A stretch of 11,676 nucleotides of DNA from Verrucomicrobiota bacterium (GTDB lineage Bacteria > Verrucomicrobiota > Verrucomicrobiia > Opitutales > Opitutaceae), in assembly GCA_030916665.1 (NCBI GenBank), contig JAUPWC010000381.1:1-11676 (forward strand), given 5' to 3'. The translations under genes were made by a program, and so were the position numbers. Below the pieces are notes generated by a model, which saw nothing but the letters and a program-made list of their open reading frames with translations, was not told the origin of the DNA and did no database searches. Each line of letters opens with the position of its first letter. Position 1 is the first letter of the stretch. Positions 1,547 through 7,333 of the stretch are shown piece by piece.

Positions 1547-1750
1547 GCGCGTCCGCCCTTACATGATCTGCATCAAGGCGACTGGGGTCATTGCGGTGTA
1601 GCGTGGAAGCGTGTCCCCAGACATGGATACCACGCTCAATTACGACCTGCTAACTCCTTCCCCTTGTCGGCGCGTCAATCTGGACCGGAGGGAACAGCTT
1701 GTTGGCGACGACCGTGCTACCCCGCGCACTGCGGACGCGGCGTGCGGAAA

Positions 1751-1767
1751 TCCTCAACAAACGAGGA
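1751..1767 (-). terminator. Weak hairpin, possible former tRNA-Val terminator
   Basis: On the minus strand TCCTC, a 7-base loop and GAGGA are followed by TTTCC. In the pre-insertion arrangement this would lie about 20 bases after the tRNA 3' end. The stem is only 5 bp and the T-run short, so it is a weak candidate. Confidence 0.3.
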
Positions 1768-1785
1768 AGATCCCATCTGAGCGCG

Positions 1786-1803
1786 ATGGTGGACGCTACA
1801 GGA
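1786..1803. repeat. attL: Left attachment site (displaced tRNA-Val 3' end)
   Basis: ATGGTGGACGCTACAGGA is identical to 5738-5755. It contains the complement of the CCA end, the acceptor 3' strand and the start of the T-arm of tRNA-Val. Flanking bases differ on both sides (G versus C before, G versus C after), so identity stops at 18 bp. Confidence 0.88.
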
Positions 1804-1833
1804 GCCCTTCGTTCCGCTCTATGGGAAGTGTGT

Positions 1834-1850
1834 GGTTGCCGTTCGGTTGT
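1834..1850. repeat. Left-end arm-type repeats
   Basis: GGTTGC (1834-1839) is followed 11 bp later by GGTTGT (1845-1850). The 16-base stretch GGTTGCCGTTCGGTTG differs at one base from GGTTGCCGTTTGGTTG at 5642-5657 near the other end of the element. Both lie on the element side of their att core in the same orientation, as expected for arm sites of a lambda-type integrase or an excisionase. Confidence 0.6.
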
Positions 1851-1851
1851 T

Positions 1852-2127
1852 CTATTTTCCGTCTTTTTTGGCCGGCTTTTTCTTGTAGCGAATAGCCTCT
1901 CCAACTTCTTCGCTCACTTCTTGTAAGAACTTTTCCTCTTCGCTGAGGGCAGGGCATCCTTGGCCATACCACCAACGGATAATGTTGGTCGCATATTCTG
2001 TCGGCGTCGCAGACATCGGACGAGCACGCTGATCAATAGCCATTCCAATGTGCTCAGGCAGTGAGACGGTGATTCGGCGTTTCAGAATCACGAAGCTGGC
2101 AGGATCGGGTTTTTGATCGGTGCTCAT
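1852..2127 (-). CDS. Ribbon-helix-helix (CopG/Arc-like) regulator
   Basis: 91-aa protein. Residues about 18-55 have the ribbon-helix-helix pattern: a short strand KRRITVSLPE, then helix HIGMAIDQRAR, a turn, and helix TPTEYATNIIRWWY. An acidic helix (SEEEKFLQEVSEEVGEAI) and a lysine-rich tail (KKKPAKKDGK) follow. Such proteins bind DNA as dimers. It is divergent from the excisionase-Rep run and probably represses that promoter, as CopG does for rep in rolling-circle plasmids and RstR-type repressors do in CTX-like phages. The second ATG (2125-2127) is preferred because it leaves the CAGCAT repeats outside the coding region. ATG 2148 would add seven residues, and neither start has a clear Shine-Dalgarno. 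A solitary antitoxin is an alternative, but no toxin partner is adjacent. Confidence 0.7.
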   Translation of the reverse strand: MSTDQKPDPASFVILKRRITVSLPEHIGMAIDQRARPMSATPTEYATNIIRWWYGQGCPALSEEEKFLQEVSEEVGEAIRYKKKPAKKDGK

Positions 2128-2130
2128 GGG

Positions 2131-2193
2131 AGCAGCATTTGCCAGCATATCGCAGTTGACAAGACTATCAGCATACGCTGCTAATTGCTGCTA
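2131..2193. promoter_or_regulatory. Divergent control region with repeated CAGCAT/GCTGCT operator motifs
   Basis: CAGCAT occurs at 2133, 2143 and 2169. GCTGCTA, close to its inverse, occurs at 2177 and 2187. Two of the intervals are 10 bp, so same-strand copies face one side of the helix. The motifs flank and overlap the promoter at 2156-2185 and are the best candidate binding sites for the RHH protein. Confidence 0.45.
2156..2185 (+). promoter_or_regulatory. Promoter for the excisionase-Rep run
   Basis: TTGACA (2156-2161) matches a sigma-70 -35 element perfectly. After an 18-bp spacer, GCTAAT (2180-2185) is a fair -10 (4 of 6). A start near 2192 would leave only about six bases before the ATG at 2198, so the first gene may be translated from a leaderless or nearly leaderless mRNA. 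That fits the absence of a Shine-Dalgarno there. Confidence 0.5.
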
Positions 2194-2197
2194 TTCG

Positions 2198-2443
2198 ATG
2201 TCTGTCACACTTGAAACAATCGCCGCCCGTCTCGAACGCATCGAGCAAGCGCTCTCGATGCAGGCTCCTGCGCGGGTAAGTTACACACCCAAGGAATTCG
2301 CCAAACTTGTAGGGCGGTCTTATCGTTGGACCGTGGACAGGTGCGCGGCTCGGGTGATTCGCACTGTTCGTGTTGGCGGGGCCTACCTGATACCGGCTTC
2401 CGAGCTAGAACGATTCAGCAACGGACAAAAGGCGCTCCTGTAA
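2198..2443 (+). CDS. Excisionase-like helix-turn-helix protein
   Basis: 81-aa protein. Residues 1-20 form an amphipathic helix (LETIAARLERIEQAL), probably a short coiled coil. Residues about 28-73 look like the small winged HTH of the MerR/excisionase (HTH_17) type: SYTPKEFAKLVGRSYRWTVDRC, then a wing RTVRVGGAYLIPASELERF. Such proteins bend DNA at att sites to favour excision, or regulate transcription. The pairing with a tyrosine integrase in the same element supports an excisionase role. The ATG was chosen because upstream in-frame ATGs overlap the divergent promoter. The stop overlaps the next start (TAATG, 2441-2445). Confidence 0.65.
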   Translation: MSVTLETIAARLERIEQALSMQAPARVSYTPKEFAKLVGRSYRWTVDRCAARVIRTVRVGGAYLIPASELERFSNGQKALL

Positions 2444-2655
2444 TGCCCTCCGTTGAACCAGTGTCGGCTCAATTGCGCGGCCTTCTCAAATATTTCGAGG
2501 CCAACCCGCATCATGCGGCGGAATTGCGGGCATGGTTCATGGTCTCGCAATTTTGTCCGTGTGCCGAGCGCATCGAGCGAGTTTCACGCAGCAATCGCAT
2601 GCTACGCGAGCACCGTGCGAAGCTGGGGGCAGGACGTCCGGAGGGGATGCCATGA
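2443..2655 (+). CDS. Small hypothetical protein, 70 aa
   Basis: No family recognised. It has a leucine-rich amphipathic start (SAQLRGLLKYFEANPHHAAELRAW), a CPC motif (FCPCAERIE) and an Arg-rich second half (RVSRSNRMLREHRAKLGAGR). Basic character and small size suggest a nucleic-acid or protein-binding accessory, but this is a guess. Its start overlaps the preceding stop by one base and its stop overlaps the rep ATG by four (ATGA, 2652-2655). It is therefore tightly coupled in translation and very likely a real gene despite its size. Confidence 0.6.
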   Translation: MPSVEPVSAQLRGLLKYFEANPHHAAELRAWFMVSQFCPCAERIERVSRSNRMLREHRAKLGAGRPEGMP

Positions 2656-3563
2656 GCGAAGCCTACAGGCATCTTTTTGGTGGGGGGTTCCCTGCCCCCA
2701 GCGGGGGCGGGGGAAGGGGCGTGGGGGAGAAGGCTGCGAATACTATGGAGCTACGATACTACACACCCGAAACGTGGTTCACGGCTGAGGGTGCATACCT
2801 GAAGGCGCGTCGTCTTCAGCGGTCGGGACTACCGGACATGACCAACTGGCGGTTTGTGACCCTCACAGTCGCCGTCAGGAACATTTCCCGGGAAGAGGCC
2901 TATCTGCGCGGCAAGGACCGTCTGCGGCGGTTCTTTGCCCGTTTCCGTGCGGCTATCGGCCGCGAATTCAAATGGTGCTGGAAACTGGAATTTCATGAAG
3001 ACGGATACGCGCACTGGCACGTCCTCTTGGAATACACCAAGCAGATTCCGCCCGAGATTCTTCCCGAGCTGGAAAAGTGGTGGGGCCTCGGCCGGGTCAA
3101 CGTAAAGCGGGTCAAGCAGCGTGACCTTTTCTACGTCTTCAAGTATGTCGCGAAGGGGCCTGATGATCTTCCCGCGTGGGTGCAAAACTATCGCGGACGG
3201 CTTCGGGTGTTTCAGGGGTCTAGAGGTTTTTTTGTCCACGCCCAGCGCAGGACAGCAAAGAAGCAGGAACCGCGCTCCTGCCTTTTGCCGCTGACGCTGG
3301 GCCAGCGTATGGAGTGGGACCGACGCAAGGCGATCTTGGCGGAGACGAACCACCGCGGGGAGATGTTCCTTAGCATCGTCAAACTGCGCATGCCATTTTC
3401 CGAGCTGTATCTGGCTCGGGTTCACCAATCAGTCACGAAGCGTCAACAGCTCGTCGGCTTCGGGACTGTTCCAATCAGCACGAGCCAAGCAGTAGAAATA
3501 AAACATGAGCACAAGCAATACAGCGGCCTCGGCCGCATCCCCCGCAACGCAGCCGCAGCTTAG
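2652..3563 (+). CDS. rep: HUH-endonuclease rolling-circle replication initiator
   Basis: 303-aa protein. Motif I is WRFVTLTV (66-73). Motif II is AHWHVLLEY with the metal-binding pair His121/His123. Motif III is LFYVFKYVAKG with Tyr161 and Tyr165 spaced Y-x-x-x-Y plus Lys168, the two-tyrosine pattern of phiX174 gpA-like and inovirus-type Rep proteins. Such enzymes nick one strand at the double-strand origin and become covalently joined to the 5' end. A good Shine-Dalgarno (GGAGG, 2640-2644) lies 7 bases before ATG 2652. The first 31 residues are a Gly-rich low-complexity tail encoded by a G-rich tract. A second ATG at 2745 (MELRYYTPE) could begin the folded protein. A role in transfer as a mobilisation relaxase is possible, but the motif set favours replication. 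Confidence 0.82.
   Translation: MSEAYRHLFGGGFPAPSGGGGRGVGEKAANTMELRYYTPETWFTAEGAYLKARRLQRSGLPDMTNWRFVTLTVAVRNISREEAYLRGKDRLRRFFARFRAAIGREFKWCWKLEFHEDGYAHWHVLLEYTKQIPPEILPELEKWWGLGRVNVKRVKQRDLFYVFKYVAKGPDDLPAWVQNYRGRLRVFQGSRGFFVHAQRRTAKKQEPRSCLLPLTLGQRMEWDRRKAILAETNHRGEMFLSIVKLRMPFSELYLARVHQSVTKRQQLVGFGTVPISTSQAVEIKHEHKQYSGLGRIPRNAAAA
2694..2727 (+). repeat. GC hairpin and G-quadruplex motif in the 5' end of rep
   Basis: GCCCCC (2694-2699), loop AGC and GGGGGC (2703-2708) form a perfect stem. The plus strand from 2703 to 2727 reads G5-C-G5-AA-G4-CGT-G5, a textbook quadruplex pattern with loops of 1, 2 and 3 bases. The two folds are mutually exclusive. Possible roles are an origin or strand-switch structure, or control of rep translation. 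Confidence 0.6.
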
Positions 3564-3804
3564 TGGCGGTTTATACCTCAAGGGCACGGTCATCGCCGTG
3601 CGCACGGAGGAGAAGGAGTGGGAGAAGGAGAAATACACGCAAACCACTGTCGAAGTTTCGGACGGCCAGCAGGTCTATTCCATGCGGCACCGACACGACG
3701 CTTCTCCGTATCAACCCCCGAAGCTCTTTTCGGAAATCAAGGTGCGTGTCACCTACGCCACCACCGAGAAAGGCAAGATCAGCGTCAAGGGCCTACTTGT
3801 CTAA
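3505..3804 (+). CDS. Small beta-rich protein, possible ssDNA-binding protein
   Basis: 99-aa protein with a Ser/Ala/Thr-rich disordered start (residues 1-18) and then a strand-rich body: GLYLKGTVIAVRT, a charged loop EEKEWEKEKY, TQTTVEVSDGQQVYSMRHR and EIKVRVTYATTEKGKISVKGLLV. The length, strand alternation and position directly after an HUH Rep resemble the ssDNA-binding proteins of filamentous phages (gene V or RstB-like, OB fold). No diagnostic motif proves it. The ATG lies inside the last 59 bases of rep, so the two genes overlap and may be coupled. No strong Shine-Dalgarno is seen. Confidence 0.5.
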   Translation: MSTSNTAASAASPATQPQLSGGLYLKGTVIAVRTEEKEWEKEKYTQTTVEVSDGQQVYSMRHRHDASPYQPPKLFSEIKVRVTYATTEKGKISVKGLLV

Positions 3805-3810
3805 CCCGTT

Positions 3811-4332
3811 ATGATTCCCCGTAACCGGCAAGACAAACAGGGCGTTGGGCACGATTTCCAAAAGGAAATTACGCCCGACTTCGAGCGTCAACGGTTTGAC
3901 GACGAGAGCCTTGCCTTATGGCAAGACTCGCTTCGAGCCTTGGACTCTGGAGAGGGAGAACTTATAGCTTTAATGCTCGATCGTTTAGGGGGTTTGTTTG
4001 ACTGGCTTACTCAAAGACAAGATCCCGAATACGTCATTATCAGAACGTGGGTTCTCTGCTATTTCTGCAGACCACAGATAATCCATTACGAGACCATTGG
4101 TTCATTTGCAAAACGTATGGGGAAAACAGCCCAAGGCATCACGCATCATATTCGTGAGTTTCAAGCTTTGTTCCCCGGGGTCCGGTTCCCAATGAGACCG
4201 TCTGGCATCAATCGTAAGCCGAACGCGAATCAGAACGGGCGACGATATCAGCAGGTAGTCAAAGCAGGCGGAAGCGAGTTTCACCATACACTTGATCGAT
4301 ACCAAGCCGAGGTGACGCGCGTTTGTGCTTAA
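3811..4332 (+). CDS. Hypothetical protein with probable HTH, 173 aa
   Basis: No family recognised. The N-terminal third is polar and acidic. The middle has a hydrophobic helical stretch (YVIIRTWVLCYFC). A helix-turn-helix-like segment follows at about residues 93-118 (HYETIGSFAKRMGKTAQGITHHIREF). The C-terminal part is basic and Asn/Gln-rich (GINRKPNANQNGRRYQQ). It starts six bases after the preceding stop and is the last gene before the terminator, so it belongs to the same transcript. The lower GC content than the host genes is clear here. It could be a late regulator, a replication accessory or cargo. The start is uncertain because no Shine-Dalgarno is visible. Confidence 0.6.
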   Translation: MIPRNRQDKQGVGHDFQKEITPDFERQRFDDESLALWQDSLRALDSGEGELIALMLDRLGGLFDWLTQRQDPEYVIIRTWVLCYFCRPQIIHYETIGSFAKRMGKTAQGITHHIREFQALFPGVRFPMRPSGINRKPNANQNGRRYQQVVKAGGSEFHHTLDRYQAEVTRVCA

Positions 4333-4353
4333 TCCCTCCCTACACAACACACG

Positions 4354-4379
4354 AAGGCCGGCGAAAGCCGGCCTTTTTT
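4354..4379 (+). terminator. Strong intrinsic terminator after the Rep run
   Basis: AAGGCCGGC (4354-4362), GAAA tetraloop and GCCGGCCTT (4367-4375) form a perfect 9-bp stem whose 3' arm runs into six T residues (4374-4379). It lies 22 bases after the last plus-strand stop. Confidence 0.9.
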
Positions 4380-4400
4380 ATTGGTCACAACATTCATGCC

Positions 4401-4450
4401 GAGCGCGAGCGCGAGCCGGCGCCAGCCGGCCGCGCCGCGCCGGCCTTTCC
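4401..4450. repeat. GC-rich palindromic cluster, terminator-like
   Basis: GCCGGC occurs at 4415, 4425 and 4439. The first pair is separated by GCCA, echoing the GCCGGC-GAAA-GCCGGC core of the terminator at 4357-4372. A GAGCGC tandem precedes it and CCTTTCC follows. It may be a second, degenerate terminator or a duplicated module, and could help stop minus-strand transcripts leaving int. Confidence 0.4.
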
Positions 4451-4462
4451 TTGTTCAATCTC

Positions 4463-4497
4463 AACGTAACTGACAGGGGCGGCTGTCAAGCTACGTT
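4463..4497. repeat. Long bulged inverted repeat beside the int stop codon
   Basis: AACGTA (4463-4468) pairs with TACGTT (4492-4497). Inside it, TGACAG (4471-4476) pairs with CTGTCA (4483-4488) around GGGCGG. That gives 12 bp of perfect pairing with a small internal bulge. No T-run follows on either strand, so it is not an ordinary terminator. A hairpin nicking site for the HUH Rep (double- or single-strand origin) or an oriT is possible. Confidence 0.5.
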
Positions 4498-4505
4498 CTC
4501 GGGAG

Positions 4506-5618
4506 TCAGATTCCGAAGAATCGGGCGGCATCTGCTGCCGTGGCCCGGCCCTTGTAGTGCTGGTAAAGCGTGCTCGGGTTGGCGTGGCACAGGATGACGG
4601 CGGTCCGGGCGGCGTCCTTGTGCTGGGCGACGTGGTAGGAGCAAAACGAGTGTCGGAGCACGTTGCCGGGGTTGTGGACGCCGGCTAACCGGAACGCATC
4701 ACCCTTCAAGGTCAGATACTGACGCTCAGTCATGGCCCACGCTTCGGCAGGGGCCGAACGCAGCCATTTCCAGAGGTTTTCTGGTAGGCCGTCGATGTAA
4801 TGCCGCTTCCGGGTTTTTAGCTTCGCAGCGGGCAAAGTAATGCCCTTGTCCGCGAAATTGATGTCCGCCTTCACAATCCGGGCCGCTGAGGAGAACCGGA
4901 GGCCGGCGAAGGCCTCCAGGGCGAGACGGGCACAGACCTGAGGAAGTCGCCTCCGGGCGGTGCGGAAGAGTTTCTTGGCGTCATCGGCACTTAGGACCGT
5001 CACGTCATCGGAAACACGGGCTGGGCTCCGGACGCTTTCGCAGGGGTTGACGCTGGCTAGTCCTTCGAGCCGTGCCCACACGTAGAAGGCGCTTACTCGC
5101 TTGTAGTGGTTGCGCTTGGTCACCGGGGCGAAGGGCAGGGCGGCAAGCCATGTCCTGATGTCGTCGGGGGTGAGGGCAAGCAACCTGTCCCCGAACGCTG
5201 CCACAAACCGGGCCATGTCCATCTTTGCATGTGTGAGTGTGCCTTTAGCGATGCCGTCTTTCTTTCGGGATTCCAAGTAGCGGGCCGATGCCTCCCGGAT
5301 CGTGATGGAAGCAACCACGCCGGCTTTTTTGCGCTCGGCAAGCCACTCGTGGGCCACCTGCAACGGATCGACTTCTCCCACCGCGTTTTTGAAGGAGAGC
5401 CATGTCCGCCACTCTTTCGGATCGAAGGTGAGAACATCGGCCCCGTGGGCGTTACGCTTCTCGGCCAGTGCCTTTGCCGCCTTTTCCCGTGCGCTTGGTG
5501 ATTCGTAGGCGGCCGCGTGTCTTTTGCCGTCCTCCTGCCAGTGGAGGAAGTGGGGCGCGTTGGTGCGCTCTGGCCGATGGCTGTAACGAATTCCGCGGGG
5601 TGGTGTCCAGTTGCTCAT
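4506..5618 (-). CDS. int: Tyrosine recombinase (integrase) of the element
   Basis: 370-aa site-specific recombinase. An N-terminal arm-binding region (1-75) precedes a core-binding SAM-like domain (about 100-190, with TIREASARYLESRKK and VTKRNHYKRVSAFYVWAR). The catalytic domain (about 205-370) has Arg241 in AFAGLRFSSAARI, Lys268 or a neighbour in KLKTRKRHYI, box II NVLRHSF with Arg322/His323, His345 in LCHANPS and the likely nucleophile Tyr355 in YQHYKG. The first box II His is replaced by Asn319. ATG 5618 was chosen because the frame extends upstream only to a TTG at 5702 and the extension is encoded by the GGTTGC repeat array. It lies just inside the tRNA and on the same strand. The tRNA location and flanking repeat make its job clear. 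Confidence 0.92.
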   Translation of the reverse strand: MSNWTPPRGIRYSHRPERTNAPHFLHWQEDGKRHAAAYESPSAREKAAKALAEKRNAHGADVLTFDPKEWRTWLSFKNAVGEVDPLQVAHEWLAERKKAGVVASITIREASARYLESRKKDGIAKGTLTHAKMDMARFVAAFGDRLLALTPDDIRTWLAALPFAPVTKRNHYKRVSAFYVWARLEGLASVNPCESVRSPARVSDDVTVLSADDAKKLFRTARRRLPQVCARLALEAFAGLRFSSAARIVKADINFADKGITLPAAKLKTRKRHYIDGLPENLWKWLRSAPAEAWAMTERQYLTLKGDAFRLAGVHNPGNVLRHSFCSYHVAQHKDAARTAVILCHANPSTLYQHYKGRATAADAARFFGI

Positions 5619-5658
5619 GGTTGCAGTCTGGTTGCTAACACGGTTGCCGTTTGGTTGC
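5609..5658. repeat. Right-end array of GGTTGC repeats upstream of int
   Basis: GGTTGC occurs at 5619, 5630, 5642 and 5653, with a near-copy AGTTGC at 5609. The periods are 10, 11, 12 and 11 bp, about one helical turn each. The array overlaps the integrase ATG (5616-5618). Bound protein could therefore both build the recombination complex and repress int. Confidence 0.65.
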
Positions 5659-5737
5659 CATAGAGCCGGCAAACAAGGGCATTTCGTAGCAAGGAATGAC
5701 AACCCTGCTCACTCTACGGACTCTCCTTACTCTGGAC

Positions 5738-5755
5738 ATGGTGGACGCTACAGGA
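5738..5755. repeat. attR: Right attachment site inside the tRNA-Val 3' end
   Basis: This is the second copy of the 18-bp direct repeat. It forms the 3' end of the intact tRNA gene, so integration restored a functional tRNA with element-borne sequence. Crossover must lie within these 18 bases. Confidence 0.88.
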
Positions 5756-5815
5756 CTCGAACCTGTGACCCCGTGCGTGTGAAGCACGTGCTCTAACCAA
5801 CTGAGCTAAGCGTCC
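5739..5815 (-). tRNA. tRNA-Val, anticodon CAC, with encoded CCA
   Basis: Minus strand from 5815. The acceptor arm GGACGCT pairs with AGCGTCC (5743-5749). The D-arm contains AGCTCAGTTGGTTAGAGC. The anticodon stem-loop is CGTGC-TTCACAC-GCACG with anticodon CAC. The T-arm has GGTTCGAGTCC. The discriminator is A (5742), followed by encoded CCA (5741-5739). All arms pair well. Its last 18 bases are the integration site of the element. Confidence 0.95.
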
Positions 5816-6217
5816 GAAACGAGGGGCAGACGGTTGCGAGCCCTCCTCCCGAAATCAACCATTCTTTTGTCGGGCCCCGAACTCCCGCCGCAGGGCCGCC
5901 AGCAACTCCGCCTCGGTGCAGGGCTGGCGCAGGCGGCCAGCAGAAACCTCACCTGCTCGGTGCGGCCCGGAAGCAGAAAATTGGATCGTTTCGCTCTCAT
6001 CTGCGCAGATCAGCGAAGATGAGCGGTTACCCAACTGCAGCCCAAGAGCTGAGGGGCAGCGCGGGGACAGGAATTCACGGCCGCACGGGAAAATCCCGCT
6101 GCTCCCGCAGCAGGCCACACCGGCAATCGCGGAATCCGGGTTCAGTCGAATCCTTGCCAGCGGCACCCCGTGCTCCGGTCCGTCACCCCGCCCGTGCAAC
6201 CGGGCCATCAGCCAACC
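5816..6217. other. Intergenic region between tRNA-Val and glycerate kinase, no convincing gene
   Basis: About 400 bases. A minus-strand frame (5855-6208) is open but has no recognisable motif, a cysteine-rich low-quality composition and no ribosome-binding site. The sequence holds a few short hairpins, including a weak terminator-like one near 6086-6111 and the 12-bp palindrome ATCTGCGCAGAT. It should contain the tRNA promoter, but no clear -35/-10 pair was found. Confidence 0.5.
6086..6111 (-). terminator. Weak possible terminator after the glycerate kinase cluster
   Basis: On the minus strand GCTGC-GGGA-GCAGC is followed by GGGATTTTCCC, itself a small hairpin with a T4 run. It lies a little over 100 bases after the glycerate kinase stop. 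Short stems make this a low-confidence call. Confidence 0.3.
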
Positions 6218-7333
6218 TCACCCCAATCCGCGGCCGAGCGCCGCAACCAGCAGTTCCGGACAGCGCGGCAGTGCCTCGCCCAAGGGCATTCCCGGCGGTG
6301 TGATGGCGTGATGAAATTTATCCTCCGGCAAGCCGAGGCTGCCCGCGAAGACGTGTGCCATATTGCCCAGGCTCCGTGCGGTCCGCACCAACGAGCCGGG
6401 CCCCTTGCCCGCGAGCGACGTCGCGTCGAACCGGCCCTCCCCGGTGATCACGAGATCGGCCGCAGCGATGCGTTTTTCCAGACCGAGCCAGTCGGCGACG
6501 AGATCAAATCCCGGCGTCAGCCGCGCGCCGGCCGCGACCATCAGGCCGAACGCGATCCCGCCGGCCGCACCGCTGCCCGGCGTTTCGACCAGACTGCGCG
6601 GTTTGCCCGCCGCGTCGCACAGCCTTGCGGCCAGGCGCGCAGCTTCGGCCTCCAGGCGCGGCACGTCGGCCGGAGCGAGGCCCTTTTGCGGACCGAAGGT
6701 CGCGGTCGCACCCTGCGGACCGAGCAACGGATTCACCACGTCGCACGCGATGAACACGGGCGGCAGTTCCGTGCGCCCTTCCATGAAACGGAGGGCGGCC
6801 CAATTGGCCGGGATCGGATCGCGGGCGAAGGACCAGCCGAGAGCCGACAGCGCGCCCAAGCCGAGGTCGTTGGTCGCGCTGCCGCCGACTCCGAGCAGGA
6901 TGACATCGGCGCCGGCCCGGTGCGCGAGCGCGATCAGTTCGCCCGTGCCGCGCGTGCTCGTGAGCCACGGGTTGCGCTGCGCGGCAGGCACGAGTTCGAG
7001 GCCGCTGGCCGACGCCATGCCGATGACCGCCACCGTTTCCGATCCGGAAAGTGTGAGGCGGGACCACACGGCGGCAGACAGGCACGCCGCCCGGACGCAG
7101 CCGATGCCTGCCCGCACGGGCTCGCCGAGCGGTCCGCGCACGACGTGGTAATCCATCCGCCCGCCCGCCGCCCCGGTCATGATCTCGGCGAACGACTCGC
7201 CGCCATCCGTCAGCGGGCACAGGTCGAAGGTCCAATCCGGATGCCTCGCTTGCAACGCCCCGACCGCGATCTCGCAGGCCGCAGCGGCGGAGAGCCCATC
7301 CTTGAATTTGTCGAAGGCGACCAGCGCGTGCAT
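6218..7333 (-). CDS. glxK: Glycerate kinase (GlxK/GarK family)
   Basis: 371-aa cytoplasmic kinase that phosphorylates glycerate to a phosphoglycerate (2-phosphoglycerate in this family), feeding glycolysis from glyoxylate or serine breakdown. Family motifs in order: AFDKFKDGLSA (6-16), CPLTDGGES (39-47), LGVGGSATNDLGLGALSALGW (147-167), ACDVVNPLLGPQGA (196-209), FGPQKG (213-218), PGSGAAGG (252-259) and ITGEGRFDATSLAGKGP (296-312). Length is normal. Small departures are DKFKDG for the usual DSFKGS and GGES for GGEG. The ATG has no obvious Shine-Dalgarno. It lies 31 bases after nth on the same strand, so it may end a three-gene transcript with GH5 and nth, though no functional link is evident. 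Confidence 0.93.
   Translation of the reverse strand: MHALVAFDKFKDGLSAAAACEIAVGALQARHPDWTFDLCPLTDGGESFAEIMTGAAGGRMDYHVVRGPLGEPVRAGIGCVRAACLSAAVWSRLTLSGSETVAVIGMASASGLELVPAAQRNPWLTSTRGTGELIALAHRAGADVILLGVGGSATNDLGLGALSALGWSFARDPIPANWAALRFMEGRTELPPVFIACDVVNPLLGPQGATATFGPQKGLAPADVPRLEAEAARLAARLCDAAGKPRSLVETPGSGAAGGIAFGLMVAAGARLTPGFDLVADWLGLEKRIAAADLVITGEGRFDATSLAGKGPGSLVRTARSLGNMAHVFAGSLGLPEDKFHHAITPPGMPLGEALPRCPELLVAALGRGLG

Follow-up and report, generated by a model that had tools for sequence, protein, structure and literature searches.

The window analysed here is a DNA stretch of 11,676 nucleotides that makes up one entire contig of a draft assembly (85% complete, 698 contigs), and the subject of this study is a unit within it that is bounded by 18-bp repeats at a tRNA-Val gene. 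From left to right, the unit carries a gene for a ribbon-helix-helix (RHH)-like protein on the minus strand; genes for a helix-turn-helix (HTH) protein of the excisionase (Xis) type, orf70, rep, orf99, and orf173 on the plus strand; a stem-loop; and a tyrosine integrase gene (int) on the minus strand (Table 1). An initial annotation had described it as a compact integrative element built around an HUH replication initiator (Rep). The element belongs to a family of Rep-bearing elements arranged at tRNA genes in related genomes.

Table 1. Features of the tRNA-Val element in the window (att, attachment site; RDF, recombination directionality factor)
Feature	Position	Strand	Basis
Left att copy, 18 bp	1786..1803	+	Exact repeat
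Small protein, 98 aa, RHH-like by eye	1852..2148	-	Similarity to G083a element protein
Excisionase-type HTH protein, 81 aa (putative Xis/RDF or rep-operon regulator)	2198..2443	+	HTH_17, PHROG 66
orf70, 70 aa, overlaps neighbouring genes	2443..2655	+	Open reading frame
Hairpin, 12-bp stem in computed fold, followed by G-run	2688..2715	+	Dispersed repeat copy
Rep, HUH rolling-circle initiator, 272 aa from ATG 2745 (probable start)	2745..3563	+	PF23343
orf99, 99-aa partner of Rep, overlaps rep end	3505..3804	+	Neighbour of Rep
orf173, orphan protein, 173 aa	3811..4332	+	Open reading frame
Terminator-like stem-loop and T-run, 3' of orf173	4353..4376	+	Computed stem-loop scan
Tyrosine integrase, 370 aa, start 121 bp from tRNA 3' end	4506..5618	-	PHROG 1, homologues
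Right att copy, within tRNA 3' end	5738..5755	+	Exact repeat, tRNA call
tRNA-Val(CAC), intact, target	5739..5815	-	ARAGORN, Rfam

Boundaries and gene content of the element

The sequence ATGGTGGACGCTACAGGA occurs at 1786-1803 and again at 5738-5755, on the same strand and with no mismatches, and the starts of the two copies are 3,952 bp apart, which is the length of the element. The right copy is the 3' end of the tRNA (T-arm/acceptor and encoded CCA) plus one base, given that ARAGORN places tRNA-Val(CAC) at 5739-5815 on the minus strand and Rfam places a tRNA at 5742-5815. The integrase gene lies beside this tRNA, whose end is directly repeated at the far side. The GC content in 400-bp windows is 49-64% within the element (mean 58%), 62-66% to the left of position 1400, and 64-73% to the right of 5800. 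We considered that an ordinary tRNA might show an 18-bp match by chance, with unrelated genes between the copies, and the failure to find an empty site would fit such a coincidence. However, no match with up to three mismatches arose in 200 shuffles, no further copy (up to two mismatches) exists in the rest of the 4.29-Mb assembly, and the int-tRNA arrangement recurs at 11 of 16 homologous loci, which makes chance very improbable. The annotated 3,952-bp unit with perfect repeats was confirmed in this respect.

An empty site in relatives had been proposed as a check, and we compared 26 tRNA-Val stretches from related genomes, 16 of which extend at least 10 kb past the tRNA, the others being shorter. 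The right-hand neighbourhood was recovered in part, with nth lying 138-548 bp from the tRNA on its 5' side in 14 of the 26 stretches, but nrdD, the gene of the left flank, was found in 0 of 26. On the tRNA 3' side, nth was present in 3 of 26. The last 14 nt of the tRNA were uncopied in the 26 stretches, so the proposed counter-evidence, the same match in strains lacking the element, did not appear and the result favours an element. In the window, a glycerate-kinase-like gene (by eye, 6218-7333) separates nth from tRNA-Val.

The integrase matched PHROG 1 at 8.6e-28, in agreement with the annotation of an own tyrosine integrase, and scored 22.7 bits against Pfam Phage_integrase, below the cut-off of 27.1. 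The excisionase-like protein was likewise borne out, by a match to HTH_17 at the cut-off (5.5e-6, 27 bits); its match to PHROG 66 was at 0.0011 and its TIGR01764 score of 25.9 bits was under the cut-off of 28.8. The proposed RHH regulator stands less firmly: it had no Pfam match, but a G083a-element protein is 50% identical to it over 54 aa, and tblastn gave matches at four loci (L032, L036, L038, and L039). No family in the protein-family libraries scanned matched orf70. The product of orf173 was its own sole match in the protein set, had no PADLOC match, and showed weak similarity (23% identity over 132 aa) to a 158-aa protein of G083a, which itself has a weak HTH match. Terminator-like sites numbered 8, compared to 4.5 expected in shuffles, and the stem-loop 3' of orf173 has the longest stem with a T-run on the operon strand among the eight. 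No sigma-70-type promoter was found across 1700-5850. Among the seven element proteins, we found no match to Zot/pI or coat genes, of which very small structural genes could escape, and no relaxase or conjugative translocase family of the kind that would mark an actinomycete integrative and conjugative element (AICE) or an integrative and mobilizable element (IME). The annotated inventory therefore held for the integrase, Xis-like protein, Rep, and the lack of recognised structural, conjugation, or cargo genes, but had left orf99, orf173, and orf70 unlisted.

Rep matched Pfam REP_ORF2-G2P (PF23343, filamentous-phage type) at 3.3e-15 (56.6 bits, cut-off 27.8); this was its single match at E <= 1, with no superfamily 3 helicase domain such as a CRESS-type initiator would carry. 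The residues H121/H123 and Y161/K164/Y165/K168 (303-aa numbering) are invariant in 30 aligned Rep sequences. The HUH assignment is thus upheld and its type now specified as filamentous-phage ORF2/G2P, with a 99-aa partner. The rep frame is also open from ATG 2652 and further upstream; ATG 2745 is probably the conserved start, given that 272 aa is the length of 15 of the 20 closest listed Rep homologues, and all four of the 15 whose sequences were read begin at the matching methionine. In the protein set, there were 120 Rep homologues among the matches listed and 147 orf99 homologues at E <= 0.001, the query itself counted. The sole organism-named source among the listed matches to either protein was a Lacunisphaera sp. 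metagenome-assembled genome (MAG), whose Rep homologue is 80% identical. In the survey set of 142 related genomes, orf99 is present in 6 others and adjoins Rep in 6 of 6. From this position, which it also holds at the Zot-bearing locus G028, we infer that orf99 may encode a single-stranded DNA (ssDNA)-binding, gV-like protein. One Rep relative was found in IMG/VR, on a Zot-bearing contig. Scans of genome_contigs and viral_contigs with Rep only, and of viral_contigs with an orf99 alignment, confirmed no relative, and neither Rep against the phage collection and plasmids nor the element DNA against plasmids (72,556 records) gave a match.

The hairpin close to the start of rep has the pattern TTCCCYGCCC...GGGCRGGGGAA, with some paired changes (by eye), and is followed by the G-quadruplex-like G-runs of GGGGCGTGGGGG (2716-2727); the unit as a whole covers 2682-2727. 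We located copies of a 25-mer from it (up to two mismatches) at 8 places, spread over 6 of the 142 genomes, compared to 1 for the reversed-pattern control. The exact pattern was found in 0 IMG/VR contigs and in 6 genome_contigs records, two of them G036 contigs and five of the six named Opitutia or Opitutaceae; the six include a Pirellulales MAG contig with two copies of the G-rich motif about 4 kb apart. Copies lie in L027, L048, L049, L058-L062, L064, L066, and L067, often close to the 5' ends of various types of rep gene. Counting the window's Rep, 11 of the 120 Rep homologues listed contain the peptide that the hairpin encodes in frame with Rep; an N-terminal extension of sufficient length to include it is present in 43 of the 120. 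A role for 2688-2727 as a Rep-specific nick site was rejected, as copies stand beside different Rep types, and is also contradicted by a copy within an integrase-like open reading frame (ORF; by eye) of G013. The repeat could be either a shared cis site or a hitch-hiking sequence, and it may be a shared signal for the host or a helper, for example in second-strand priming or packaging.

Sister elements at tRNA genes and their cargo

Rep scored in 19 of the surveyed genomes. We counted 21 Rep loci in 16 genomes, without the window and without G003 and G013, which were left out because their rows match the N-terminal repeat only; the distant Rep of G003 scores 29.4 bits with PF23343, over the cut-off, and 26.8 bits with RepSA, below its 34-bit cut-off. 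A tRNA lies in the fetched stretch at 10 of the 21 loci, and at each of these 10, exact direct repeats of the tRNA, 26-41 bp long, enclose Rep and an integrase (the G122 integrase match extends 38 bp beyond the repeat). These sister elements are 4.5-11.1 kb long and target tRNA-Tyr (G122, G109a), Val (G117, G083a), Gln (G083c), Thr (G001b, G120), Met (G010, G127), and Arg (G077). The repeat is of the tRNA 3' end in five and of the 5' half to the anticodon region in five. A second integrase family, with int adjoining the tRNA 5' end and a 5'-half repeat of 37-41 bp, was seen at L033, L034, L037, L041, L046, and L059. G036 contig 60 has a tRNA-Met, a 37-bp repeat, and a different Rep, with a weak Phage_CRI score (17.5 bits, cut-off 21.7). 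In all, 12 tRNA-bounded elements were delimited, including the window's and the one with a different Rep, and the window element is the smallest of those delimited with this Rep. The annotation is to be amended in two further respects: the element is one of 12, and the combination of Int, Xis, and a rolling-circle Rep in a tRNA is known from pSAM2-type elements. The nearest Reps (G036 contig 122 and G069) have no tRNA and no window-type integrase on their contig pieces, which are short or end pieces, so that their ends could not be placed; they speak neither for nor against the element under the other proposed counter-evidence, close relatives with these genes but no flanking repeats.

As a control, 4 of 38 distinct other tRNAs (fetched stretches of at least 10 kb) showed an 18-nt repeat; these tRNAs are not a random sample, given that the stretches were fetched for mobile genes or tRNA-Val. 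Three of the four positives adjoin a Rep or an integrase like those described here: tRNA-Leu of G003 (19-bp repeat, distant Rep inside), tRNA-Pro of G059 (31-bp repeat, with a broken integrase and the G-rich motif but without a Rep), and the Int-homologue locus of G035.

Homologues of Int at E <= 1e-10 occur in 51 of the 142 genomes, the window's included. Among the better-scoring ones, 16 loci were fetched, and in 11 the int match begins 109-283 bp past the 3' end of a same-strand tRNA (Val, Ala, Met, Pro, or Ser). One 13-nt match at the Int loci belongs to a different, doubtful tRNA. In G035, a family-level relative, an Int homologue (71%) lies after an incomplete copy of tRNA-Val, 36 bp of which are also in the intact gene; of the 16 loci, this one alone showed a tRNA-end repeat of at least 13 nt that could mark an element end. 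At this locus (L149, G035:C16, tRNA-Val(CAC)), 9.7 kb of metabolic-looking genes (by eye) lie between 36-bp tRNA repeats, and a second unit with the 71% Int homologue adjoins, with a 16-bp copy 2.7 kb on.

Defence-type genes (AbiEii, type III restriction-modification, SIR2, FRG, and PDC-S19) are present in 5 of 11 sister elements. G117 carries AbiEii, a patatin-family protein, and an ISL3 transposase; G010 a type III methylase/ResIII pair and a DndB/DpdB-like protein; G120 SIR2 and Type ISP proteins; G077 an FRG-domain protein (PADLOC PDC-S15); and G109a PDC-S19 (3.5e-152). A MazE-like/PIN pair was found in G127 and DUF6941 in G083a and G001b. The cargo lies between rep and int, except for the G120 genes, which are beyond rep, and the G117 transposase. 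The window element has no recognised cargo, and its slot between rep and int holds the small orphan orf173 only. Among 40 sister-element ORFs, hand-picked from more, 17 had no Pfam family, no conjugation family was found, and the lone structural-type match was Zot in G083c.

Relation to filamentous phages and mode of spread

Six of the 21 Rep loci have Zot no more than 5 kb away (G028, G109b, G128, G141, G083b, and G083c), and Zot occurs in 9 of the 142 genomes. Five integrase queries (E <= 1e-6) picked up a match at 13 of 15 Zot-less loci (about 8 kb from Rep in G001a) versus 1 of 6 Zot loci, a contrast that is suggestive only, given that the queries came from the window and Zot-less loci and that the loci are not independent. 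On a single contig, G083 carries a Zot-less 4.5-kb and a Zot-bearing 9.5-kb element, both tRNA-bounded, which are 81% identical over 1.76 kb (rep, the next gene, and DNA upstream of rep) and 68% identical over 262 bp around the RHH-like gene. In a tree built from 22 Reps, that of the window clusters with those of G036 and G069 (97/95), and 8 of 19 inner branches are firm. Label changes for Zot and Int on this tree are about as frequent as with shuffled labels (mean 5.3), and we claim no single origin for Zot-bearing or integrase-bearing loci, given that the tree leaves them unseparated.

We consider it likely that the unit is a compact integrative rolling-circle element of a probable Opitutaceae bacterium, running on a filamentous-phage-type replication module; this judgement leaves aside any helper. 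Int would recombine the 18-bp site at the tRNA-Val 3' end, and integration would keep the tRNA whole while moving the other 18-bp copy to the opposite end of the element. The HTH protein probably sets recombination directionality or regulates the operon, and the RHH-like protein is probably a repressor. As the protein families suggest, excision would yield a 3,952-bp circle that Rep would nick and copy by rolling circle, with orf99 perhaps coating the single strand.

Several points weigh against this interpretation. Excision, the circle, replication, and transfer are predictions here, and no empty site was found in the 26 tRNA-Val stretches, the left-flank DNA matching no congener. The Int and HTH_17 scores are at or under curated cut-offs, and orf99 had no family match in the libraries scanned and no solved-structure relative. 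In addition, 11 of the 21 Rep loci lack a tRNA in the stretch, several being on short contigs, and at the 11 Int loci with an intact neighbouring tRNA, no tRNA-end repeat of at least 13 nt was found to mark the far end. The Zot and Int labels are unclustered on the Rep tree, with 5 changes, at least 3 of them on firm branches. Against a helper step in particular, a search of the 21 genomes of the genus, the element's own 85%-complete assembly included, found no Zot.

The interleaved labels, as repeated loss would give, and a Rep family common to Zot-bearing loci would also fit a decaying filamentous prophage that has lost its structural genes by deletion and now sits immobile, without a selected function. 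We regard this as unlikely: Rep, orf99, HTH, and int are all open and the repeats exact, 9 further loci that have this Rep family and tRNA boundaries show the same Zot-less plan of Rep and Int, Rep and orf99 have many homologues, and sisters carry defence-type cargo.

With no recognisable gene for a coat, a secretion ATPase, a relaxase, or a coupling protein, a mobile element of this kind would neither package nor conjugate itself. From the split between Zot-bearing and Zot-less loci, transfer as ssDNA by a filamentous helper is plausible, if short of probable, and would be an economical use of a phage replication module without a shell. Because no helper is in sight, we consider it equally plausible that the element is autonomous: an integrative plasmid on the pSAM2 plan but lacking conjugation genes, which would replicate by rolling circle and move between cells by transformation, in vesicles, or through mobilisation by an unrelated plasmid. 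The presence of Int, Xis, and Rep in a tRNA and the absence of Zot from the genus are consistent with such a plasmid, as are the lack of a Rep match in the phage collection, with one IMG/VR relative by this search, and a longest contig of 3.6-4.6 kb (about element size, linear or circular) for 16 of the 120 listed Rep homologues. However, the Rep type, the G083 module shared with a Zot-bearing prophage, and the place of orf99 beside Rep in the Zot-bearing locus G028 point to a phage-derived module, and there were no matches in the 72,556 plasmid records.

Comparison with known systems

The element shares the PF23343 type of Rep with filamentous phages (Inoviridae sensu lato), and an orf99 homologue lies beside Rep in a Zot-bearing locus, but no Zot/pI or other structural gene was recognised in it. 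Inovirus prophages with att repeats in tRNAs or using integrases were counted by Roux et al. 2019, whose account also places tyrosine recombinases among inovirus genes (PMC6813254). At 3.95 kb, the element falls below the inovirus range of 5.5-10.6 kb stated in the International Committee on Taxonomy of Viruses (ICTV) profile (PMC8491893). No description of such elements in Verrucomicrobiota was among the literature matches listed (titles and abstract starts), and these searches suggest that the family is so far undescribed. If our reading is correct, small Opitutales elements near tRNA genes, most of them lacking a viral hallmark and hence easily overlooked by hallmark-based tools, would be mobile rolling-circle elements shuttling defence genes, G083 would offer a testable pair of filamentous-phage satellite and helper in this phylum, and the loci would form a natural series with the full prophage at one end and the 4-kb minimal element at the other.

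The pSAM2-type elements (AICEs) combine a tyrosine integrase, Xis, and a rolling-circle Rep in a tRNA; the window element differs in having no recognised conjugative translocase and a different Rep family, although the distant G003 Rep shows the sub-cut-off RepSA score given above. RS1 carries filamentous-phage replication genes without structural genes and integrates through the host XerCD. The window element is RS1-like in its gene content, a phage-type replication module likewise without structural genes. RS1 is a satellite of CTXphi (PMC11389934). Unlike RS1, the window element has its own tRNA-linked integrase, and no helper was identified for it. An autonomous plasmid reportedly acts as an inovirus satellite (Schmid et al. 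2024). Satellites of the phage-inducible chromosomal island (PICI) and P4 types and tRNA-borne islands are small, integrate at tRNAs, and carry defence genes. The present family resembles them in its small tRNA-integrated elements and in the defence-type cargo of 5 of 11 sisters, but uses an HUH Rep of filamentous-phage type and has no recognised tailed-phage genes. We tentatively suggest that Verrucomicrobiota host widespread filamentous-phage satellites, tRNA-specific, with an HUH Rep and defence cargo and travelling in a helper's virions, which would be an ssDNA counterpart of PICI and P4.

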